Shown piece by piece: positions 2,798 through 10,420 of a stretch of 64,000 nucleotides of DNA; within the stretch, counting starts at the first letter, position 1; each line of letters opens with the position of its first letter. The stretch covers positions 72,662 to 136,661 of the forward strand of contig JAKVBX010000004.1 in NCBI GenBank assembly GCA_022446795.1. Direction: 5' to 3'. The translations under genes and the position numbers were made by a program. This DNA comes from Phycisphaerales bacterium (GTDB taxonomy: Bacteria > Planctomycetota > Phycisphaerae > Phycisphaerales > SM1A02). The notes beneath the pieces are model-generated. The model was not told where the DNA came from. It saw nothing but the letters and a program-made list of their open reading frames with translations, and did no database searches.

Positions 2798-3613
2798 CTA
2801 CTCCGGGAAGAGAGGCCCGATGACCGCCTCACCGGCGCGAATCAGCAGCCGGCTGGTCTCGGGCACTTCCTCCCAGTTCTCGGCCAGGGTATCGAGGGGC
2901 TCTGAAAGCACCAGGAAGGCCCGGTCCGCCAGCGTGATTCGATCACCGTCCGCGGTCTTGAGTTCCACTCCCGGGGTGCTGTGGTAGAGCGATGGTTGAG
3001 GTCCATGGCTGGCATAGCGGGCGGCGTAGATCGTCTCTCCATCCGCCGCCGCCACGGTCATGTGGAAGGACTCCTCGATGCCCGCCGCCTCCCGGGCCTT
3101 CTCCACTTCTTCGATCATCCGGCAGATCCCGCCGAACGGATCCTCCGCCAGACCCAGGCTCAACGCGAGCAGGAACATCGTTTCGGAGTCGGTCTGGCCG
3201 ATCTTCTCCGCGTACAGGTCGTCTCGGATCGACATGTCGAGGCGGTGCTTGATCAGATCGAATCCGGCAATCGCACCGTTGTGCTGAAACAACCAGTTCC
3301 CGTGGCGGAACGGATGGCAGTTGCACCGCACGACCTCGCTGCCGACGGCAGCCCGGATATGACCAAAAAACAGGGGTGAACGGATATGAGCGGAGAGGCT
3401 GGCCAGGTTCCAGTCATTCCAGGCGGGACGCGTGTCGTGGTACACGCCGGGAGTGGCACGATCGGTGTACCACCCGATTCCGAAGCCATCGGCGTTGACT
3501 TCAAAGGTCGCCTCGCGGGCATGTCGGCTCTGCGTCAGCAACGAGTGCTCGGGCCGAAGCAGCAGTTCATCCATGAAGATCGGTGATCCCGAGTACGCCA
3601 ACCAACGACACAT
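2798..3613 (-). CDS. Class II glutamine amidotransferase (YafJ/Gn-AT_II type)
   Basis: 271 residues from the ATG at 3613. The frame stays open upstream, but the class II fold needs the catalytic Cys directly after the initiator Met, and the internal start gives MCRWLAYSGSP, so this start is chosen. It is supported by GGGAG seven bases upstream. Conserved features include a GFGIGWY segment, RSPLFFGHIRA, and CHPFRHGNWLFQHNGAI, all typical of the glutaminase domain that hydrolyses glutamine and delivers ammonia. There is no synthase domain, so it is a stand-alone glutaminase-type protein of unknown acceptor, as in the YafJ group. A highly structured interval lies upstream and could act as its leader. 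Confidence 0.9.
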   Translation of the reverse strand: MCRWLAYSGSPIFMDELLLRPEHSLLTQSRHAREATFEVNADGFGIGWYTDRATPGVYHDTRPAWNDWNLASLSAHIRSPLFFGHIRAAVGSEVVRCNCHPFRHGNWLFQHNGAIAGFDLIKHRLDMSIRDDLYAEKIGQTDSETMFLLALSLGLAEDPFGGICRMIEEVEKAREAAGIEESFHMTVAAADGETIYAARYASHGPQPSLYHSTPGVELKTADGDRITLADRAFLVLSEPLDTLAENWEEVPETSRLLIRAGEAVIGPLFPE

Positions 3614-3724
3614 GGCATTGCTCCCAGTTGCAGTTCCGGCCGGATCATCCCGGGCGGCACAAGGTAGCCGCATGCGGCGTGCGTCGCCCGTGACGATCCT
3701 GGCCCAATCCACCGGGCCCAGGAC

Positions 3725-3881
3725 CCTCCACGACACAGGCCGGCTTTCGGGGTTCCGTCCGAAGCCGGCCTGGCCGTGGAGGCAGGGGTTCCCGGGTCCC
3801 GGGGAGCCGACAGCGGCCTGAGGATGCCGCTGTCGCCCCCGGGGGCACCGAGGTGCTCACCGGCCCTCAAGGCCCGGTGAG
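3725..3881. other. Candidate structured RNA: three stacked hairpins
   Basis: First stem: CCTCCACG (3725-3732) pairs with CGTGGAGG (3775-3782) and encloses a second helix in which 3736-3750 pairs with 3759-3772. Second stem: CGACAGCGGC (3808-3817) pairs with GCCGCTGTCG (3826-3835). Third: CTCACCGG (3856-3863) pairs with CCGGTGAG (3874-3881). Strand cannot be decided from symmetry. On the minus strand it would be a 5' leader of the amidotransferase; on either strand it could be an independent RNA. It does not show the conserved core of RNase P, SRP RNA or tmRNA that I would recognise. Confidence 0.35.
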
Positions 3882-4174
3882 GCGTGAGGAGAAAGAAATG
3901 ACCCCCCCCAGCCCGTGTGTTGGTGCCAATTTCTAGCCCCTCTTCCGGGAACCGCTGCGGATCCCCCCCCGAATTCTTGAACGGGCCCTTGCGCCAAGAG
4001 ACTGCGTTTTGGCAGCAATTGACGGGGGACCCATACGTACCGGTCAAGATGGCCACGTACCGAGGGAATCGATCGTGCAGCAAACGAACACCCAATTCAC
4101 GGCACACGGATCACTGGCTATCGCTGGTGCTCAACCGATGACCCGCCCTTGGCACATTCATCAAAACATGATGA

Positions 4175-4202
4175 TGACTGAACTTTGGCAGAAGTTCGGT
4201 CA
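4175..4202. promoter_or_regulatory. Inverted repeat upstream of the HTH-TPR regulator gene
   Basis: TGACTGAACTT (4175-4185) is mirrored by AAGTTCGGTCA (4192-4202), with one G-T mismatch and a six-base centre. It lies about 160 bases before the regulator start and could be an operator (possibly autoregulatory) or a weak hairpin. No T-tract follows, so a terminator is less likely. Confidence 0.35.
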
Positions 4203-4365
4203 TGTGTCCCGAGGGGGTTGTAGCGTCGAATTCCGGGTGGGAGCGCTCAAGTGAGCAAGGCGTCACCACGCACGCCGCTGTTCACGAGATTCCATCGGGA
4301 CGGGATGCAACCAGGAGTCCACCGACCCTGACGCATCGCCAAGGCAAGGAAGGAGAGTAGACACG

Positions 4366-5613
4366 ATGTCAACCACAGATGAACGAAGGCGCCGGCTGGA
4401 AAGGCTACTGGACCTGGCGCAGGTCTATCGAGGCTGGACGCGAAGGGAACTCGCGAAGGCACTGGGGCGAGATCCGACGAAGTTGATTCCCGGAAGCGGG
4501 AACCCCAAGCTCGATCTCATCGTCTCCCTGGCTGATGTCCTGGATTGGAGCATTGGCGAAGTGACCGAGTGCCTGTGGTCTCCCGCGAACGACACCAAGA
4601 AGGTGGACACGACGAGCGATCTCACCTTTGATGATCTCGATGAACTCGCTGGCGAAGCCTATCGCCGTGGCGACTACCGAGAGATGATCCGCCTGGCCAT
4701 CCGCGCCCGCAAGGCTGCGAATTCTCCGGAAGAGCGAGCTCGCTCCTGGAATCGTGAACTGGGTGGATGGGACGGCCTCGGTCGTTTCACGCGGACGCTC
4801 GAAGCGGCCCGCGAAGCCCTTCGCGAGTCACCGGTTTCAGATGACATGCGTCGCCTGCTTCAGAGCAACCTGGCCAACGCCTACTACGTGCTGTGGCACC
4901 TGACCGAGGCGAGGACGACGGCGCATGACTTGATTGACCACTATCGATCCACGCCCCCCACCTCGGACCGGGACCGTCGGACGCAGGCCTTCTGCCACTA
5001 CGTGCTCGGCCATACGCACCGTCGGCTGATCGATACCGAGCCCCTGCATGCCACTCGGCATGCCCGGATCTGCCAGCGGCACCTGGCCGAGGCGACGAGC
5101 CAGTTCGAAGCGCTCGCACCAGACCTCGGCAGTCACCTGCTCGGCATTGCCCGCACCTGCCGCGGCGGGCTGCTCGAAGCTGAGGTCCTCCTCGGCACGC
5201 GGGACTCCCGCGAGGCCCTGGCTGAGATCAACGACTGCCTCAACGAAGCCGTCGATCCCAGTGCGGTCAGTGGCGATGACCTCGAGAGCTACGGATGGTG
5301 GTGCATCTTCGGCTGCAACATCACCCTGCGACATGTTTCCGACGAGCGTGATCTCCAGCGGTTCATGGCCATGTTCACCAACAAGGCCGACGAGATCGCC
5401 AACACGCTCGATAACTGGGCGATGCGAGAACGCGTGTTCTCGATGCAGTACGCCGGCCACCGCCGATTCGTCGGCTGGACGGGTCAGCCGCTGCGCATGA
5501 CCATCGACTCTGACGACATCAAGATGATCACAGGCACCATGGGCCGATTCCCGCAGTTCCGTGAAACGGGCTGGGATATGCTCGAAAATGCCTGCGTGGT
5601 CAATGCAAGCTGA
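4366..5613 (+). CDS. HTH (XRE-like) regulator with helical TPR-like domain
   Basis: 415 residues. The ATG at 4366 follows AAGGAAGGAGAG, a good ribosome site. Residues about 15-62 form a helix-turn-helix of the XRE type (GWTRRELAKALGRDPTKL, then a second helix with LIVSLADVLDWSIGEV). The rest is alpha-helical with repeated A/L-rich pairs such as LAGEAYRRGDYREMIRLAIRA and LLQSNLANAYYVLWHLTEA, resembling TPRs. This layout, an N-terminal DNA-binding domain with C-terminal TPRs, is known from peptide-responsive regulators of the RRNPP group, although sequence assignment to that group cannot be made by eye. A small exported protein gene begins 13 bases downstream and is probably co-transcribed. Confidence 0.75.
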   Translation: MSTTDERRRRLERLLDLAQVYRGWTRRELAKALGRDPTKLIPGSGNPKLDLIVSLADVLDWSIGEVTECLWSPANDTKKVDTTSDLTFDDLDELAGEAYRRGDYREMIRLAIRARKAANSPEERARSWNRELGGWDGLGRFTRTLEAAREALRESPVSDDMRRLLQSNLANAYYVLWHLTEARTTAHDLIDHYRSTPPTSDRDRRTQAFCHYVLGHTHRRLIDTEPLHATRHARICQRHLAEATSQFEALAPDLGSHLLGIARTCRGGLLEAEVLLGTRDSREALAEINDCLNEAVDPSAVSGDDLESYGWWCIFGCNITLRHVSDERDLQRFMAMFTNKADEIANTLDNWAMRERVFSMQYAGHRRFVGWTGQPLRMTIDSDDIKMITGTMGRFPQFRETGWDMLENACVVNAS

Positions 5614-5626
5614 AGGGAGGGTTGAC

Positions 5627-6130
5627 ATGAAAGTCCGTTCATATTCAACCGTGTTGATGACCTCTCTCGCCACCAGCTTGATGGCCTTGGCATCAACAGC
5701 AAGTGCCGGGACAACGGGGATGTACAATCCCGCGTACCTGACATCACCACAGAAGACGCCCTTCACCTCCCACAGCAACCAGGATGGGGAGGAACCGCCG
5801 AAGAGCATCATCCAGGTGCCGACGCTGATCAAGGACTCGACGCCATGGGACTTCACGCTTGGCGATACGCCACGCGATGTCAGCCTGATCGATCTCGTGA
5901 TCGTCATGACGCCTCCAAGCTTCGACAGCTCGGGTACTGACATCATCGAACCAGGCCTGATCGTCAGTGTCGAGAACGTCGACGTTGACTTCATCGCTGC
6001 GGTGCCGCCACCGGCGAGCACCGGCAGTGGAGGCTTCTCGGGCTTGGGAAGCACTGGCATCCCCGCCCCGGGCGCCATCGGGCTTCTGGCCCTGGCCGGC
6101 CTGGCCACGCGGAAGCGAAGGCGACGGTGA
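5627..6130 (+). CDS. Small secreted PEP-CTERM-type protein
   Basis: 167 residues from the ATG at 5627, chosen because AAGGGAGGG lies just upstream and because the resulting N-terminus (MKVRSYSTVLMTSLATSLMA) is a clear signal peptide ending near ASA. The C-terminus has the sorting-type pattern IPAPGAIGLLALAGLATRKRRRR-like: a P-A-P-G motif, a hydrophobic stretch and a terminal Arg cluster, known to be processed by exosortase in other bacteria. A Gly/Ser linker precedes it. No catalytic motif is visible in the mature part. It lies 13 bases after the HTH-TPR regulator and before a strong terminator, so the two form a bicistronic unit. Confidence 0.8.
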   Translation: MKVRSYSTVLMTSLATSLMALASTASAGTTGMYNPAYLTSPQKTPFTSHSNQDGEEPPKSIIQVPTLIKDSTPWDFTLGDTPRDVSLIDLVIVMTPPSFDSSGTDIIEPGLIVSVENVDVDFIAAVPPPASTGSGGFSGLGSTGIPAPGAIGLLALAGLATRKRRRR

Positions 6131-6182
6131 CAAGGATTGGTTCCGGCTGATTGTCCGGAGCCCGTCGACAACTCAACTCAAG

Positions 6183-6216
6183 AGCACGCACCCCCCCGGG
6201 GGTGCGTGCTTGTTTT
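6183..6216 (+). terminator. Rho-independent terminator of the regulator / PEP-CTERM operon
   Basis: AGCACGCACCCCC pairs with GGGGTGCGTGCT with a short loop and is followed by TGTTTT. It sits about 50 bases after the PEP-CTERM stop codon. Confidence 0.85.
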
Positions 6217-6241
6217 CATCCCTGAAGCGGTCGTCGACCGT

Positions 6242-7192
6242 TCACGCCGTTCGCCGAAGCCGGGCCAGGAAGAAGGGGCTCATGTCCCCCTCGGGCACGA
6301 TTCGAATGACATGGCGTGTCCACTCCGGGAGCATCGTGCCATCCCAACTCGTGATCCCGGGCCGCCGCCCGGCACATGGGAGATCGATTGGCTCGACCAC
6401 CACCGGAACCGGAGGTCGACCCAGGACATCGGCAAGCACCAGTTCGTTTTCCTCGGGCGCAAGTGTGCAGGTGGAATAGACCAGCACCCCGCCGGGTCGC
6501 AGGGTCTGCAGAGCCGACCGCAGCAGTCGCTTCTGTAGACGAGCCAACCGACGGATCTTGCCCGTCTCCCAATCGGCCCATGTCGACGGCAAGGACACCT
6601 GGAACAACCCCTCGCCGCTGCATGGCGCATCGAGCAGGACGCGATCAAAGCACGCCTCATGACTGCCACCCAGCGTCTCGGCCGCCTGCTGATGGAGATC
6701 AACACCAGTCACGCCGAGTCGTTCGAGTACGCGCTCCATCTTCCGAATGCGATTTCGGCTCAGGTCATTGGCCACCAGGATGCCCTGGCCATCCTGCTTC
6801 ATCCGGACGAGAGCGGTCTTCCCCCCCGGTGCTGCACAGCAGTCAAGAACATCCAGGCCGGGCTGAACGTCGAGCGCCACCACCGCCGCCATGCTGGAGA
6901 GCGACTGGATGAAGAGGCGTCCATCGCGAGCGAGCGGGAGGTCCTGGAGTCGCCGTCGATCGGCGGGTCGAACCGCCAGGGCGGATGGCATCCAGTCAAC
7001 GCTGGAAGCGGACAGGCCGGCCGCTTCCAGTTCCACCTGGACTTCATCGGTGCCGAGATTCGGGTCAACGATGCGAATGGAAAGCGGCCGCCCCGCCATG
7101 AAGTCGTTCATTCGCGATTCATCATCAGGCTGCAGGATGAGCGGCAGGCGTTCCAGGAATGCAGCAGGAATGTCATTGGACACGTCTGTCAC
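6242..7192 (-). CDS. RsmB/RsmF-family (NSUN-type) RNA m5C methyltransferase
   Basis: 316 residues from a GTG at 7192; the frame is open further upstream but that part overlaps the kinase gene and looks like a shadow. The SAM-binding motif DCCAAPGGKT is at residues 117-126. Motif IV DAPCSGEG gives Cys191 and motif VI YSTCTLAPEENE gives Cys242, the two cysteines needed for the covalent m5C mechanism (release and nucleophile). The family methylates cytosine C5 in rRNA or tRNA; which substrate is not evident. No separate N-terminal NusB-like domain is present, so it is shorter than RsmB and closer to RsmF/YebU core size. It starts 20 bases after the kinase stop and probably belongs to the sigma-kinase operon. 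Confidence 0.85.
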   Translation of the reverse strand: MTDVSNDIPAAFLERLPLILQPDDESRMNDFMAGRPLSIRIVDPNLGTDEVQVELEAAGLSASSVDWMPSALAVRPADRRRLQDLPLARDGRLFIQSLSSMAAVVALDVQPGLDVLDCCAAPGGKTALVRMKQDGQGILVANDLSRNRIRKMERVLERLGVTGVDLHQQAAETLGGSHEACFDRVLLDAPCSGEGLFQVSLPSTWADWETGKIRRLARLQKRLLRSALQTLRPGGVLVYSTCTLAPEENELVLADVLGRPPVPVVVEPIDLPCAGRRPGITSWDGTMLPEWTRHVIRIVPEGDMSPFFLARLRRTA

Positions 7193-7211: not shown

Positions 7212-9803
7212 TCACGGGCTCTTGGCCGAGTTGGCAGTGCCCTCGTCGCGGGCGACCTGGTATCGAGTCCGCCAGGTATCGGCCTCCTCGGTCTTGGACT
7301 GCCCGTCGCACGCCTTGGCCAGGTTCGACATGCAGACCAGGTCTTCGCCAGCCGCTGCGCGAGCCCGCCGCTTGTCCTGGGCCACGTGCCCGAAGGCGTC
7401 ATGCGCCTCAAGCAGAACCTGCTCGGCTTCCGCGAAGGATCCCAGTTCGACCAGCGCCGCCCCCTGGATGTTCAGTGCTCGCCCGATCTGCAATCGGGTG
7501 GCATAGTTCTCCTCGTCACCCTCTCCGTAGATCTCCGCCGCCTCCGCGGCCCGATCACGTGCTCCGGCATAGTCCCCGAGGCGAAGCTGCGAGATGGCAT
7601 ACGGCACCAGTGTCTTGGCCAGGTCGGGCCGCTTGCCCGCATGGTCCCGATAGATCTCGACCGCTTCCGCCAGGTCGCGCTCCGCGAGGACGTGCAGTTC
7701 CCGATCCTGTCGAGTCAATCCCAACTGGCGAAGCAAACCCGCCACTCGCGTATGGGACTTGTTCTCGGTCTCGTAGTACTTGCGGCAGATCTGGACAGCC
7801 CGTAGTTGCAGTTCTTCGGCCTGTTCAAAGTCCCGGGAGATCCGCTTGCACATGGCGAGGTTGTTCAAGGGAGTGATCAGTTCCGGAATGTCATCCCCCT
7901 GGTCTTCGCACAATTCGCGGGCCGTCAAGGCGATCTGCTCGGCCAGTTCAAACTGCTTGCGATTGAACAGGATGGACACCTTGTAGTTGAGCAGCCGGAC
8001 CTTCTGTGTCAGGTCCTCGACGTTGCCCTGCTCCAGGACTCCCATCCCGCGATCCACGAGTTCCATCGAGCGATCGTAATTCCCCAACTGGTCCTCGACG
8101 CGAGCCAGGGACAGCATGGCCTTCGCCACGAGCGCCGGATCAATGGGATCCGCGGACTCCCTCAGTTCAAGCACACGCTCAAACCGCGTCATCGCCTCGG
8201 CGGGGCCCCGTTCCTCGTAGTCGAGCCATCCCAGCAGTTCCTCGGCATCCGCCACCTGCTGCGAGTCAGGCTGAAGTTGCGAGGCGATCTCGAACGCTCG
8301 CTCCGCCTGCGTGCGGGCTTCCCTCGGCAGGTCCAGGCTCAGGTAACTGCGGCCGACCGCCAGTTGGATCGCCACGACAATGTCCGGACGCCCAATCGCG
8401 CGGGCCTCGACGGTATTGGCCGCGTTATCCAGCATGTCACGAATCGTGGGTTCTCCCCCGGCTTCCAGCCCCCCACGCTCGGGACGAATCGCCTCGATGA
8501 TGTTGGTGAACATCTCGATCACCGCGGCACGCTTGTCCGCTTCCATCAAGGCCGACTGCAGGCCCCGCTCCGCTTCCCGCTCCGCGGTGGCGGCACGAAC
8601 GTACAGCAGGGACATCCAGATCGAGACACCCACGAGCGCCAGCACCAGGACCGAGGCCAGGGCGATCGGTCCGCGGTGCCGTCGAGCCAACTTGGCCATG
8701 AGATAGGCCGTGCTGTCACGACGAGCCTCGATTGGCTCGCCATCGAGATAGCGCCTGATGTCGGCCCCCAGGCTGCCACACGACTGGTACCTCCGGTCGG
8801 GTGACTTGGCCATGGCCGAGGCAACGATGGCATCGATGTCGGCATCCAGCCACTCGACCACCTTGGATGGAGCGGTCGGATCGGTATCCGTGATGTTCTT
8901 GATGGTCTCGGAAACCGGTCCAGAGATCTTGTACGGAAAACGTCCGGTCAGGGTCTCGTACAGGACGACGCCGAGCGCGTAGATGTCACACCGCGTATCG
9001 ATGTCACTGGCGCCACCGGATACCTGCTCCGGTGCCGCGTACGCGAAGGTCCCGACGAACTCGCCGGTCATCGTGGCATCCGGGGTATCCGCGATGCCCA
9101 GGACCTTGGCCACGCCGAAGTCCAGCACCTTCGGATTGCCCTCGCGGTCGATGAGTATGTTGCCCGGCTTGAGATCCCTGTGGATGATGCCTCGGAGGTG
9201 GGCATACTGCACGGCATCGCAGATCTGGGCGAACTGCTTCAACTTCGTCCGAATGTTGTTGGAACGTGCCTCGCTGTCCATCCTCCGCTCGAAAGCCTCG
9301 GCCTTGACCAGCGGAACCCCCCGGATGAACTCCATGGCGACGAAGCACCCGCCATCGGGCAGGTCACCGCCATCGAAGACGGTCACGATGTTGGGGTGGC
9401 GAAGCGAAGCGATCAACTCGACCTCACGGGCAAAGCGGGCCCGACTCTTGTCGGATGCCGACGCCCCACCATGCATCACCTTGAGCGCAACGGTTCGCTT
9501 GGTCCGTTCCTGGATCGCCCGGTACACGGTCCCCTGGCCACCCCGGTGCAGTTCGCCGAGAACCCGGTAGCCCGGCACCATGTCTGATGCCGGTGGCGCC
9601 CCGCGTCCGCTTCCATCGGGAGCATCGGACCAGGCACCGGCCAGGCGTGTCAGGAACTCATCATCCGTCTGGATCTGGCGGACGAGGTGCATGGCTTCCT
9701 CGTCGCCCTCGATCCGGGCCTTCTTGTTGTCGTCCGCCAGTTCACCGCGGGCGTAGGCCGCGATGTCCTCGATCGGAAAACGACCTGAGGGATCATCGGG
9801 CAT
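7212..9803 (-). CDS. Membrane-anchored Ser/Thr protein kinase with TPR domain
   Basis: 863 residues. An N-terminal 70-residue helical segment precedes a Hanks-type kinase domain (about 78-355): glycine loop GELHRGGQGTVY, Lys108 in VALKVM, catalytic loop HRDLKPGN at 208-215, DFG at 228-230, and APE at 257-259. A single hydrophobic span at about 379-402 is followed by a long tetratricopeptide region to the C-terminus. The kinase would be cytoplasmic with the TPR part outside the membrane. The ATG overlaps the end of the ECF sigma gene, so the two are translationally coupled. In planctomycetes such kinases commonly pair with ECF factors in place of classical anti-sigma factors; a control role over the upstream sigma is an inference. 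Confidence 0.92.
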   Translation of the reverse strand: MPDDPSGRFPIEDIAAYARGELADDNKKARIEGDEEAMHLVRQIQTDDEFLTRLAGAWSDAPDGSGRGAPPASDMVPGYRVLGELHRGGQGTVYRAIQERTKRTVALKVMHGGASASDKSRARFAREVELIASLRHPNIVTVFDGGDLPDGGCFVAMEFIRGVPLVKAEAFERRMDSEARSNNIRTKLKQFAQICDAVQYAHLRGIIHRDLKPGNILIDREGNPKVLDFGVAKVLGIADTPDATMTGEFVGTFAYAAPEQVSGGASDIDTRCDIYALGVVLYETLTGRFPYKISGPVSETIKNITDTDPTAPSKVVEWLDADIDAIVASAMAKSPDRRYQSCGSLGADIRRYLDGEPIEARRDSTAYLMAKLARRHRGPIALASVLVLALVGVSIWMSLLYVRAATAEREAERGLQSALMEADKRAAVIEMFTNIIEAIRPERGGLEAGGEPTIRDMLDNAANTVEARAIGRPDIVVAIQLAVGRSYLSLDLPREARTQAERAFEIASQLQPDSQQVADAEELLGWLDYEERGPAEAMTRFERVLELRESADPIDPALVAKAMLSLARVEDQLGNYDRSMELVDRGMGVLEQGNVEDLTQKVRLLNYKVSILFNRKQFELAEQIALTARELCEDQGDDIPELITPLNNLAMCKRISRDFEQAEELQLRAVQICRKYYETENKSHTRVAGLLRQLGLTRQDRELHVLAERDLAEAVEIYRDHAGKRPDLAKTLVPYAISQLRLGDYAGARDRAAEAAEIYGEGDEENYATRLQIGRALNIQGAALVELGSFAEAEQVLLEAHDAFGHVAQDKRRARAAAGEDLVCMSNLAKACDGQSKTEEADTWRTRYQVARDEGTANSAKSP

Positions 9804-10420
9804 CAGTCAGCCTCGTAGAGATTCCGCAGTCGTTCAGCGACCTCGCGAAGTCGAGCGGTGATCCGGCTGCGGGACACGTAGATGTCGTGAGGCGTCATGC
9901 CGAGATCTTCCGCAACGGCATTCACAGAACGTCGATCAAAGACGACCTGTTCAAAGGCCCGGATGGACTTCTCGCTGGTCTTGCTGGTTCGCCGAAGTTC
10001 CTCGACGGCCTGCCGCAGGATCGAGCGATCAAGTTCCTCGTCCCAGAGCTTCTCCATCTCGTTGTCCTGGGGCATTCGCTCCATGGCGGTCGCACCGGGA
10101 ACTTCCTTGCGGCGGCCACGGGCCCGCTGCATGTCGATGACCCGATGGCGAGCGATACCCACGATCCAACCCCGCAGGCGACCACGCTCACGCTGGTAAC
10201 GATTCGCGCGGTAGTCCCGGACGAACTGGATGAGGGTCTCCTGGGCCACATCGTCCGCATCAGAACCGGACAGGCCCAGCCGACGAGCCACGGCCGTGAT
10301 GATCGGTCGATAGCGAGTATCGAAGGCCTGCCAGACCACGTCATCATCCGGGTCGAACAGCCCCTCAAGCAGGGACGTGGTGGTCGTCGTTCTCAGCAGT
10401 TCGCGATAACGCTCTTCCAT
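9803..10420 (-). CDS. ECF RNA polymerase sigma factor
   Basis: 205 residues from ATG 10420 with AGGG close upstream. Region 2 spans about residues 25-95, with DADDVAQETLIQFVRDY (core-binding 2.2) and LRGWIVGIARHRVIDMQRAR (-10 recognition 2.4). Region 4 is about 140-195, with FEQVVFDRRSVNAVAEDLGM and SRSRITARLREVAERLRNL forming the -35 binding HTH. There is no extra-long C-terminal extension. It is the first gene of an apparent operon with the kinase-TPR protein (1 bp overlap) and the RNA methyltransferase. Target promoters cannot be named from this window. Confidence 0.93.
   Translation of the reverse strand: MEERYRELLRTTTTTSLLEGLFDPDDDVVWQAFDTRYRPIITAVARRLGLSGSDADDVAQETLIQFVRDYRANRYQRERGRLRGWIVGIARHRVIDMQRARGRRKEVPGATAMERMPQDNEMEKLWDEELDRSILRQAVEELRRTSKTSEKSIRAFEQVVFDRRSVNAVAEDLGMTPHDIYVSRSRITARLREVAERLRNLYEAD

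Follow-up and report, generated by a model that had tools for sequence, protein, structure and literature searches.

The locus and its two genes

On the forward strand of the window (the whole stretch of 64,000 nucleotides analysed here), an open reading frame at positions 4366-5613 encodes a 415-aa regulator of the HTH-TPR kind, an assignment that draws on the ORF itself, on an AlphaFold2 model and on relatives in the family. Downstream, at 5627-6130 of the same strand, lies the gene for an exported-looking partner protein of 167 aa, recognised from its ORF and from the recurrence of this gene arrangement, whose residues 1-27 resemble a signal peptide and which carries the tail IPAPGAIGLLALAGLATRKRRRR, both as described in the original prediction. 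The two ORFs are separated by the 13-bp gap claimed for them (5614-5626), inside which we find the ribosome-binding-like sequence AGGGAGG, and the strong terminator of the same prediction corresponds to an intrinsic-terminator-like stem at 6182-6211 (plus strand), which ends the two-gene unit. A scan of positions 3600-6400 against Rfam gave nothing at gathering score. Further along the window, reading of the sequence indicates two ORFs on the minus strand: that at 7212-9803 resembles a Ser/Thr kinase with TPR-like repeats, and that at 9803-10420 an ECF-type sigma factor.

Distribution of the regulator and its partner

The window's genome, a 3.5-Mb assembly, holds a single copy of the regulator. 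Within the family, matches at E ≤ 0.001 were obtained in 145 of 181 genomes, and at the same threshold in 91 of the 104 high-quality genomes and in 35 of 45 genera. A draw from the order gave 121 matching genomes out of 301 at E ≤ 1e-10, 18 of them beyond the family, and a phylum-wide draw gave 9 out of 392, all from this same order. At the other end of the scale, one genome (G002) encodes 11 copies covering almost the whole profile, including that of locus L075; for ten of these copies an exported-looking partner was accepted, and the eleventh, L168, was excluded because of its gap.

The 201 loci yielded 139 distinct regulators whose C-terminal part is intact; these come from 131 loci and fall into 133 clusters at 95% identity and 101 at 70%. 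An exported-looking gene, called by a hydrophobicity rule and not by SignalP, lies directly downstream of 110 of the 139, a proportion that does not describe a random sample because the loci were picked for their similarity to the window protein and for best scores, with some copies chosen by hand. The gap between regulator and partner has a median of 11 bp. Partners were accepted when a same-strand ORF with a signal-peptide-like start followed no more than 60 bp away, which gave 112 regulators; L180 and L201, which look like false partners by eye, are inside this number and were left out of the later analyses based on 110. The other 27 regulators were set aside before any motif was counted, owing to a gap above 60 bp (14), to the lack of a signal-peptide-like ORF (10), to fragments (2) or to a contig end (1). 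Three of the 14 wide-gap regulators have another regulator as the next ORF, and at L193 and L194 ORFs bearing the motif described below lie at gaps of 79 and 102 bp. Second, more diverged copies of the regulator were also seen near the first at L174, L175, L176, L177, L178 and L192, with no accepted exported ORF directly downstream of them.

The regulator and its partner are a real, conserved two-gene module. Conserved co-occurrence of both genes had been named beforehand as the point on which the original prediction could fail, and it was found across an order. No third gene shares this conservation: after clustering of ORFs of at least 150 aa, none was shared by over 6 of the 28 diverse loci compared, leaving aside the largest other cluster (18 of 28 loci), which apparently consists of antisense frames of the regulator; the next clusters reach 6.

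Predicted fold of the regulator

No Pfam or NCBIfam model reaches its cut-off on the regulator. The best Pfam HTH match of the window protein is sub-threshold (E 0.09), and both TPR and HTH matches were weak when 37 aligned regulator sequences were scanned singly. Searched against the PDB, the profile of these 37 sequences matched an engineered TPR chain with E 6.4e-9 over profile positions 90-181. Structure prediction from the single sequence was poor (pLDDT 45.9), and we used instead an AlphaFold2 model built on the 37-sequence alignment, which reached a pLDDT of 89.4 and a pTM of 0.78 and in which an N-terminal helical region of DNA-binding-like appearance is followed by helix pairs. The putative HTH region (residues 4-71, 4375-4578, plus strand), which rests on the alignment, the model helices and the sub-threshold Pfam matches, comprises helices 4-22, 26-33, 49-59 and 63-71 and includes the conserved RDPTKLIPGSGNPK. 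The predicted TPR superhelix spans residues 88-394 (4627-5547, plus strand) and is read as seven helix pairs from the model, the profile and the fold matches. Of the XRE-type HTH with TPR-like repeats originally proposed, the repeats were borne out by profile and model, whereas the HTH stayed below the Pfam cut-off.

A TPR fold was the other point on which the original prediction could have failed, and the predicted structure is indeed TPR, near Rap, NprR, PlcR and AimR. Foldseek gave as best match LGN (E 3.6e-5), with the PlcR-PapR7-DNA complex at E 2.2e-4 (rmsd 18.4) and Rap-CSF at E 1.4e-3. By VIA Z, the model matched TSK (22.5), APPBP2 (22.0), LGN (19.4) and MalT (19.2), and the RRNPP receptors scored 18.5 (Rap phi3T), 18.4 (RapF with peptide), 18.3 (NprR-NprX) and 16.6 (AimR), with a range of 15.9-18.5 over about 260-290 residues for the AimR, Rap and NprR chains. 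The predicted fold is therefore compatible with an RRNPP-type receptor and non-diagnostic, since TSK, APPBP2, LGN and MalT equal or exceed the RRNPP receptors in match, so that the fold alone says little. At the sequence level, with E values up to 1 allowed, the 37-sequence profile retrieved 43 sequences from the PDB, designed TPRs and Hop among them, but no Rap, NprR, PlcR, Rgg, ComR or AimR, in a search whose reach across the RRNPP subfamilies may be limited. Invariant residues favour the first helices of the TPRs (18 of 135 positions, compared with 5 of 123 in second helices, p 0.015). The longest conserved stretch of the regulator outside the HTH is the near-invariant ESYGWWCIFGCN, at residues 307-318 (5284-5319) in the first helix of TPR 6.

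Partner proteins and a shared short motif

Whereas the regulators can all be aligned (2850 of 2850 representative pairs at E < 1e-5), their partners mostly cannot, with 142 of 2850 representative pairs aligning at E < 1e-3. They range from 89 to 507 aa (median 149) and carry varied cargo, including PEP-CTERM-like tails, W-rich proteins some 100-120 aa long and an M64 peptidase, the last found in the 507-aa partner at L052 (domain E 8e-49). The window partner itself ends in a PEP-CTERM-like tail at residues 145-167 (6059-6127, plus strand), which at 14.4 bits falls just under the TIGR02595 cut-off of 16; a related partner (L022) scores 21.3 bits, above it. A rough regular expression, which visibly misfits in places, finds no tail in 52 of 110 partners; among the 67 partners bearing the motif described next, it finds one in 41 and none in the other 26. 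The exosortase-type tail, central to the original prediction, is consequently not a defining feature of the pair: those 26 motif-bearing partners lack it, and it shows no coupling to the motif-coupled regulator sites. Exosortase PF09721 is encoded in the window's genome (E 7.7e-44), and its presence in all 40 genomes searched ruled it out as a discriminator.

The most recurrent feature of the partners is a short motif, H[ST]xQ[DEG], and not the PEP-CTERM tail. In the window it reads HSNQD (within SHSNQDG) and is encoded at 5771-5785 (plus strand), its assignment resting on enrichment among partners. The original prediction mentioned neither this motif nor the upstream dyad described below. H[ST]xQ occurs in 67 of 112 partners, when 300 shuffles gave a mean of 1.8 and a maximum of 6, and in 38 of the 76 representatives of regulator clusters at 70% identity (shuffle mean 1.1, maximum 5). 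Among the representatives, HT.Q is the commonest three-residue pattern, above proline-rich ones, and of 48 motif copies, 43 continue with D, E or G after H[ST]xQ. Two copies are present in 10 of the 67 motif-bearing partners (null mean 0.6, maximum 4). The motif lies behind the signal peptide, a median of 31 residues past the hydrophobic stretch, and is common to proteins with different cargo; in some clades it sits within a longer conserved W-rich segment. Its codons vary among loci, with serine encoded by both TCN and AGY and threonine by all four of its codons, so selection acts on the protein, and a role as a DNA element was ruled out.

The motif is absent or altered in 43 of 110 partners. 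Related forms, grouped after looking, occur in several of the 45 motif-less partners among the 112, namely HNEQG and GH[TIV]D[IV]PE, and at L158 such a form is present twice. Other motif-less partners show no such form, the G002 set among them: no partner identified for that genome's 11 near-full-length regulators bears the motif.

Coupled evolution of motif and regulator

Over a tree of 110 regulators we scanned an alignment of 409 columns, 378 of them variable enough, for coupling to the presence of H[ST]xQ, using a script of our own with a flat root and the majority residue set against the rest. Site 133 ranks first of the 378, with a likelihood ratio (LR) of 38.7 for 4 extra parameters (chi-square p ~8e-8, ~3e-5 after correction for 378 sites), followed by sites 129 (LR 29.0) and 92 (25.6) and then by 220, 304, 125 and 95. 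The strongest motif-coupled residues are thus Gly133, Asn129 and Asp92. Gly133 is present in all 67 motif-bearing regulators and in 9 of the 43 others; of these nine, four have partners of the HNEQG type, and another (L105) has a partner with FHVSQEQ, in which His and Gln are kept.

In 50 usable simulations out of 100, run for site 133 only, the null reached a maximum LR of 12.2. As a control, presence of the tail was scanned over 104 columns, and it gave LR values of 1.0-8.2 at the 12 top motif sites and a maximum of 21.2 elsewhere (site 369), so an LR near 20 is unexceptional on its own. In the full tree, sites 133, 129 and 92 stand clearly above that maximum; the same is true of 133 and 92 once the 14 tips of basal motif-less clades are pruned, a tree in which 133 (33.3), 92 (24.6), 129 (19.2) and 95 (17.8) lead. 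At LR ≥ 18 the coupled sites comprise 7 of 128 first-helix positions, none of 120 second-helix positions (p 0.015) and none of 56 HTH positions, a contrast between helices that is no longer significant at LR ≥ 14 (9 of 128 and 3 of 120, p 0.14).

The regulator and the motif thus seem to have changed in concert. Since the concave groove of TPR proteins is lined by their first helices, the simplest reading is that the groove of TPR 1-2 would read the motif. The candidate patch for this (4639-4773, plus strand) consists of D92, A95, A125, N129, G133 and D136, which lie on the first helix of TPR 1 or TPR 2 and count among the most strongly motif-coupled positions of the scan. The idea of peptide or protein sensing put forward in the original prediction gains support from this apparent coupling between the motif and TPR helices.

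Upstream DNA

The region upstream of the regulator contains a conserved dyad, CTGCGTTTTGGCAG, at 4002-4015 (plus strand), of general form CTGC[CG]TTTTGGCAG and proposed as a candidate operator on the basis of its recurrence. In a six-sequence alignment of the genus, TGCnnTTTGGCA is invariant and the block around the dyad is among the best conserved upstream. At 12 or more matches out of 14, the dyad occurs in 22 of 110 upstream regions (shuffle mean 0.8, maximum 5), a count that includes the set in which it was found (L031-L078 and the window) and of which 16 matches belong to that set and 6 lie outside it (L087, L145, L146, L149, L155 and L189). The orientation is the same in 18 of the 22 regions and opposite in 4 of the 6 matches outside the discovery set. 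Variants at distant loci keep TGC..GCA, as in TTGCGTTTTCGCAA and CTGCCTTTTTGCAG.

Exact copies of the dyad number 28 sites in 22 of 181 genomes, compared with 6 for the reversed control; 5 of them are at regulators and 23 elsewhere. Up to one mismatch, the window's genome has 4 sites, compared with 2 for the control. The notion of a wider dyad regulon was dropped, as the exact copies elsewhere do not precede exported genes significantly more often than random positions do (5 of 23, against 360 of 3000, or 12%; p 0.14). By eye, exact dyads were seen 25-200 bp before signal-peptide-like ORFs at L081, L240, L250, L251, L258, L259 and L260.

The upstream palindrome at 4175-4202 of the original prediction does exist as an inverted repeat (4174-4185 / 4192-4203, 11 of 12 pairs), which overlaps a weak dyad match (11 of 14) at 4178-4191. 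In the alignment of the genus it is not conserved, and none of the five other upstream regions gave a repeat at the reporting threshold. Nor is the palindrome unusual when loci are compared: of 52 upstream regions, 11, among them that of the window, have repeats that score equally well or better. It was consequently dropped as an operator, and from these comparisons the dyad is the better candidate. No sigma-70 promoter was found between 3800 and 6400. Upstream of the dyad, at 3947-3976, GGGAACC and CGAA-TC blocks are conserved in the genus; we take their spacing to be like that of an ECF-type promoter, and they may presumably represent one.

Comparison with known systems

The pair shares several traits with the RRNPP(A) systems (Rap-Phr, NprR-NprX, PlcR-PapR, AimR-AimP). 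It has a TPR superhelix, a likeness that is one of fold only, and its receptor-like gene adjoins a gene for an exported precursor-like protein in 110 of 139 regulators. All RRNPP(A) subfamilies except Rap have an HTH-like N terminus; here the helix pattern fits, while the PlcR-PapR7-DNA superposition has an rmsd of 18.4 and the Pfam HTH match is below cut-off. Rap occurs in many copies in some genomes, as does the regulator described here. A short motif is sometimes duplicated within the precursor, and duplicated pheromones are described for Rap systems (PMC11343458). Unlike the RRNPP(A) systems, the pair is hosted by Planctomycetes (Phycisphaerales) and not by Firmicutes, has no sequence match to known receptors among PDB sequences (E up to 1), and involves a long partner in which the motif is internal and often accompanied by a sorting-like tail or, at L052, by an enzyme domain. 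With partners of 89-507 aa and a median of 149, most exceed the 100 aa that RRNPP_detector takes by default as the limit for a precursor. The pair may well work like RRNPP, but it should not be filed as a member, because precursor size differs and no sequence relation to solved receptors was seen in the profile search of the PDB.

With PEP-CTERM/exosortase proteins the partners share a signal peptide and a tail with PAPG, a hydrophobic stretch and arginines, and the PF09721 exosortase is encoded in the same genome (40 of 40 searched); on the other hand, about half of the partners have no tail, and that of the window is under the TIGR02595 cut-off. MalT also has a TPR domain in a DNA-binding regulator, and its domain III is a structural match (Z 19.2). 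Its layout differs from that of a protein with an N-terminal DNA-binding part and has a nucleotide-binding part, whereas here the putative DNA-binding part is N-terminal and 415 aa leave no room for a nucleotide-binding one. The TPR domain of LGN/Pins, the best Foldseek match (E 3.6e-5), binds partner segments in its groove, although LGN/Pins is a eukaryotic cell-polarity protein without DNA binding.

A proposed mechanism and its rivals

Conserved adjacency, the TPR fold, the enrichment and duplication of the motif, its coupling to TPR residues and the recurrent dyad make up the computed support, and on this ground we lean towards the view that the two genes form a sensing module operating in the manner of an RRNPP receptor and its pheromone. 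The cytoplasmic regulator would bind the H[ST]xQ[DEG] segment of the exported protein encoded downstream, the groove of the first TPR repeats being the putative binding site, and most likely, by analogy, this groove would read the motif as RRNPP receptors read pheromones. Binding may alter the action of the regulator on its own promoter, probably at CTGC[CG]TTTTGGCAG, with occupancy by motif or dyad changing the binding of the other. The evolutionary evidence for a putative recognition between the regulator and its exported partner is good; from it and from the features above we infer that the regulator binds the motif directly and uses the dyad, as well as a route for the signal. The route that we favour, tentatively, is export of the partner, proteolytic release of a short peptide and its re-entry into the cell. 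Oligopeptide-binding proteins (SBP_bac_5) are encoded in 29 of 29 genomes searched, which permits re-import and lends no support to it, near-universal presence being weak evidence. Against a sensing module speak the TPR proteins outside RRNPP that match the model equally well or better, the length of the partners and the internal position of the motif, both unlike pheromone precursors, and the fact that 43 of 110 partners have no motif or an altered one and that fewer than half of the upstream regions contain the dyad.

A close competitor of peptide re-import is that the precursor is sensed before its export. The regulator would here monitor secretion or synthesis by binding the motif in the cytoplasm, and so sense export capacity or its own product, a reading that we hold to be somewhat unlikely on the whole. 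It needs neither cutting nor re-import, the whole of the coupling evidence fits it equally, and the motif stands behind the signal peptide, a median of 31 residues past the hydrophobic stretch. Moreover, since partners can be long, up to the 507-aa M64 peptidase, and about half of them end in sorting-like tails (by the rough expression), no obvious small pheromone is made. A sensor of the precursor, however, would hardly need exported partners of such varied design, the genomes with many copies would rather resemble sets of private signalling channels, and duplicated motifs are also described from secreted pheromone precursors (PMC11343458).

Quite unlikely, in our view, is that the partner is a mere target of an autoregulated operon, in which the ligand of the TPR domain is a different protein or a small molecule, the motif acts outside the cell and the coupling comes from lineages that switched function and ligand. 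Gene order alone would fit such an arrangement, and so would the longer W-rich segment that surrounds the motif in some clades and the best structural matches, which are TPR proteins with unrelated ligands. It is harder to reconcile with a coupling that peaks on first helices, above all those of TPR 1-2, and does not extend to the HTH, with the survival of site 133 after removal of the most divergent clades and its lack of coupling to the tail trait, or with a motif common to proteins of different cargo. Taken alone and without its relatives, the window copy could even be read as a TPR regulator of the ordinary kind whose gene happens to adjoin that of an unrelated surface protein; a chance neighbourhood is highly improbable, however, being already contradicted by a motif enrichment far above the shuffles, by the coupling scan and by the analysis of the partner set, with an exported-looking gene directly downstream of 110 of the 139 distinct regulators.

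Significance of a possible sensing module in Planctomycetota

Receptors of the RRNPP kind have been described from Firmicutes and their mobile elements. In its account of its own design, a large RRNPP survey analysed only complete Firmicutes genomes, with precursors limited by default to 100 aa in RRNPP_detector, and by that account it would not have seen this pair (PMC10075063). We found no description of the pair in the literature searched on planctomycete RRNPP or peptide sensing and on PEP-CTERM/exosortase regulators. If the sensing module is true, the logic of RRNPP would extend to the Planctomycetota, with precursors mostly above the 100-aa limit of the survey, and the pair could show how such bacteria sense kin, crowding or their own secretion. 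A broader picture, possible but rather doubtful, is that in this phylum with a Gram-negative-type envelope a cytoplasmic receptor signals through a pentapeptide-like H[ST]xQ[DEG] inside sorted surface proteins or even an enzyme, with motif and groove changed together by lineage and ten or more parallel pairs in one genome. The sensing module makes a concrete prediction open to mutation, which sets the His and Gln of the motif against regulator residues 92, 129 and 133.

The motif outside the pairs

Codons for HTNQD occur at 2 further sites in the window's genome (control 0). Five genomes of the same genus have one to three further sites each, mostly in orthologs of the two proteins concerned; there are two strays in G054, and none outside the pairs in G139, G140, G142 and G065. 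In the window's genome (L079) and in the same genus (L215, L226), HTNQD lies shortly after the signal-peptide-like start of an exported protein that reads as peptidase-like, with no regulator match at L079; it could be a chance occurrence in a propeptide domain or a second carrier of the motif. At L080, L207, L211, L216, L217 and L221 it lies in an orthologous large enzyme, so labelled by reading, just before dockerin-like repeats, where it is kept in the genus and is judged to be unrelated to the pairs.
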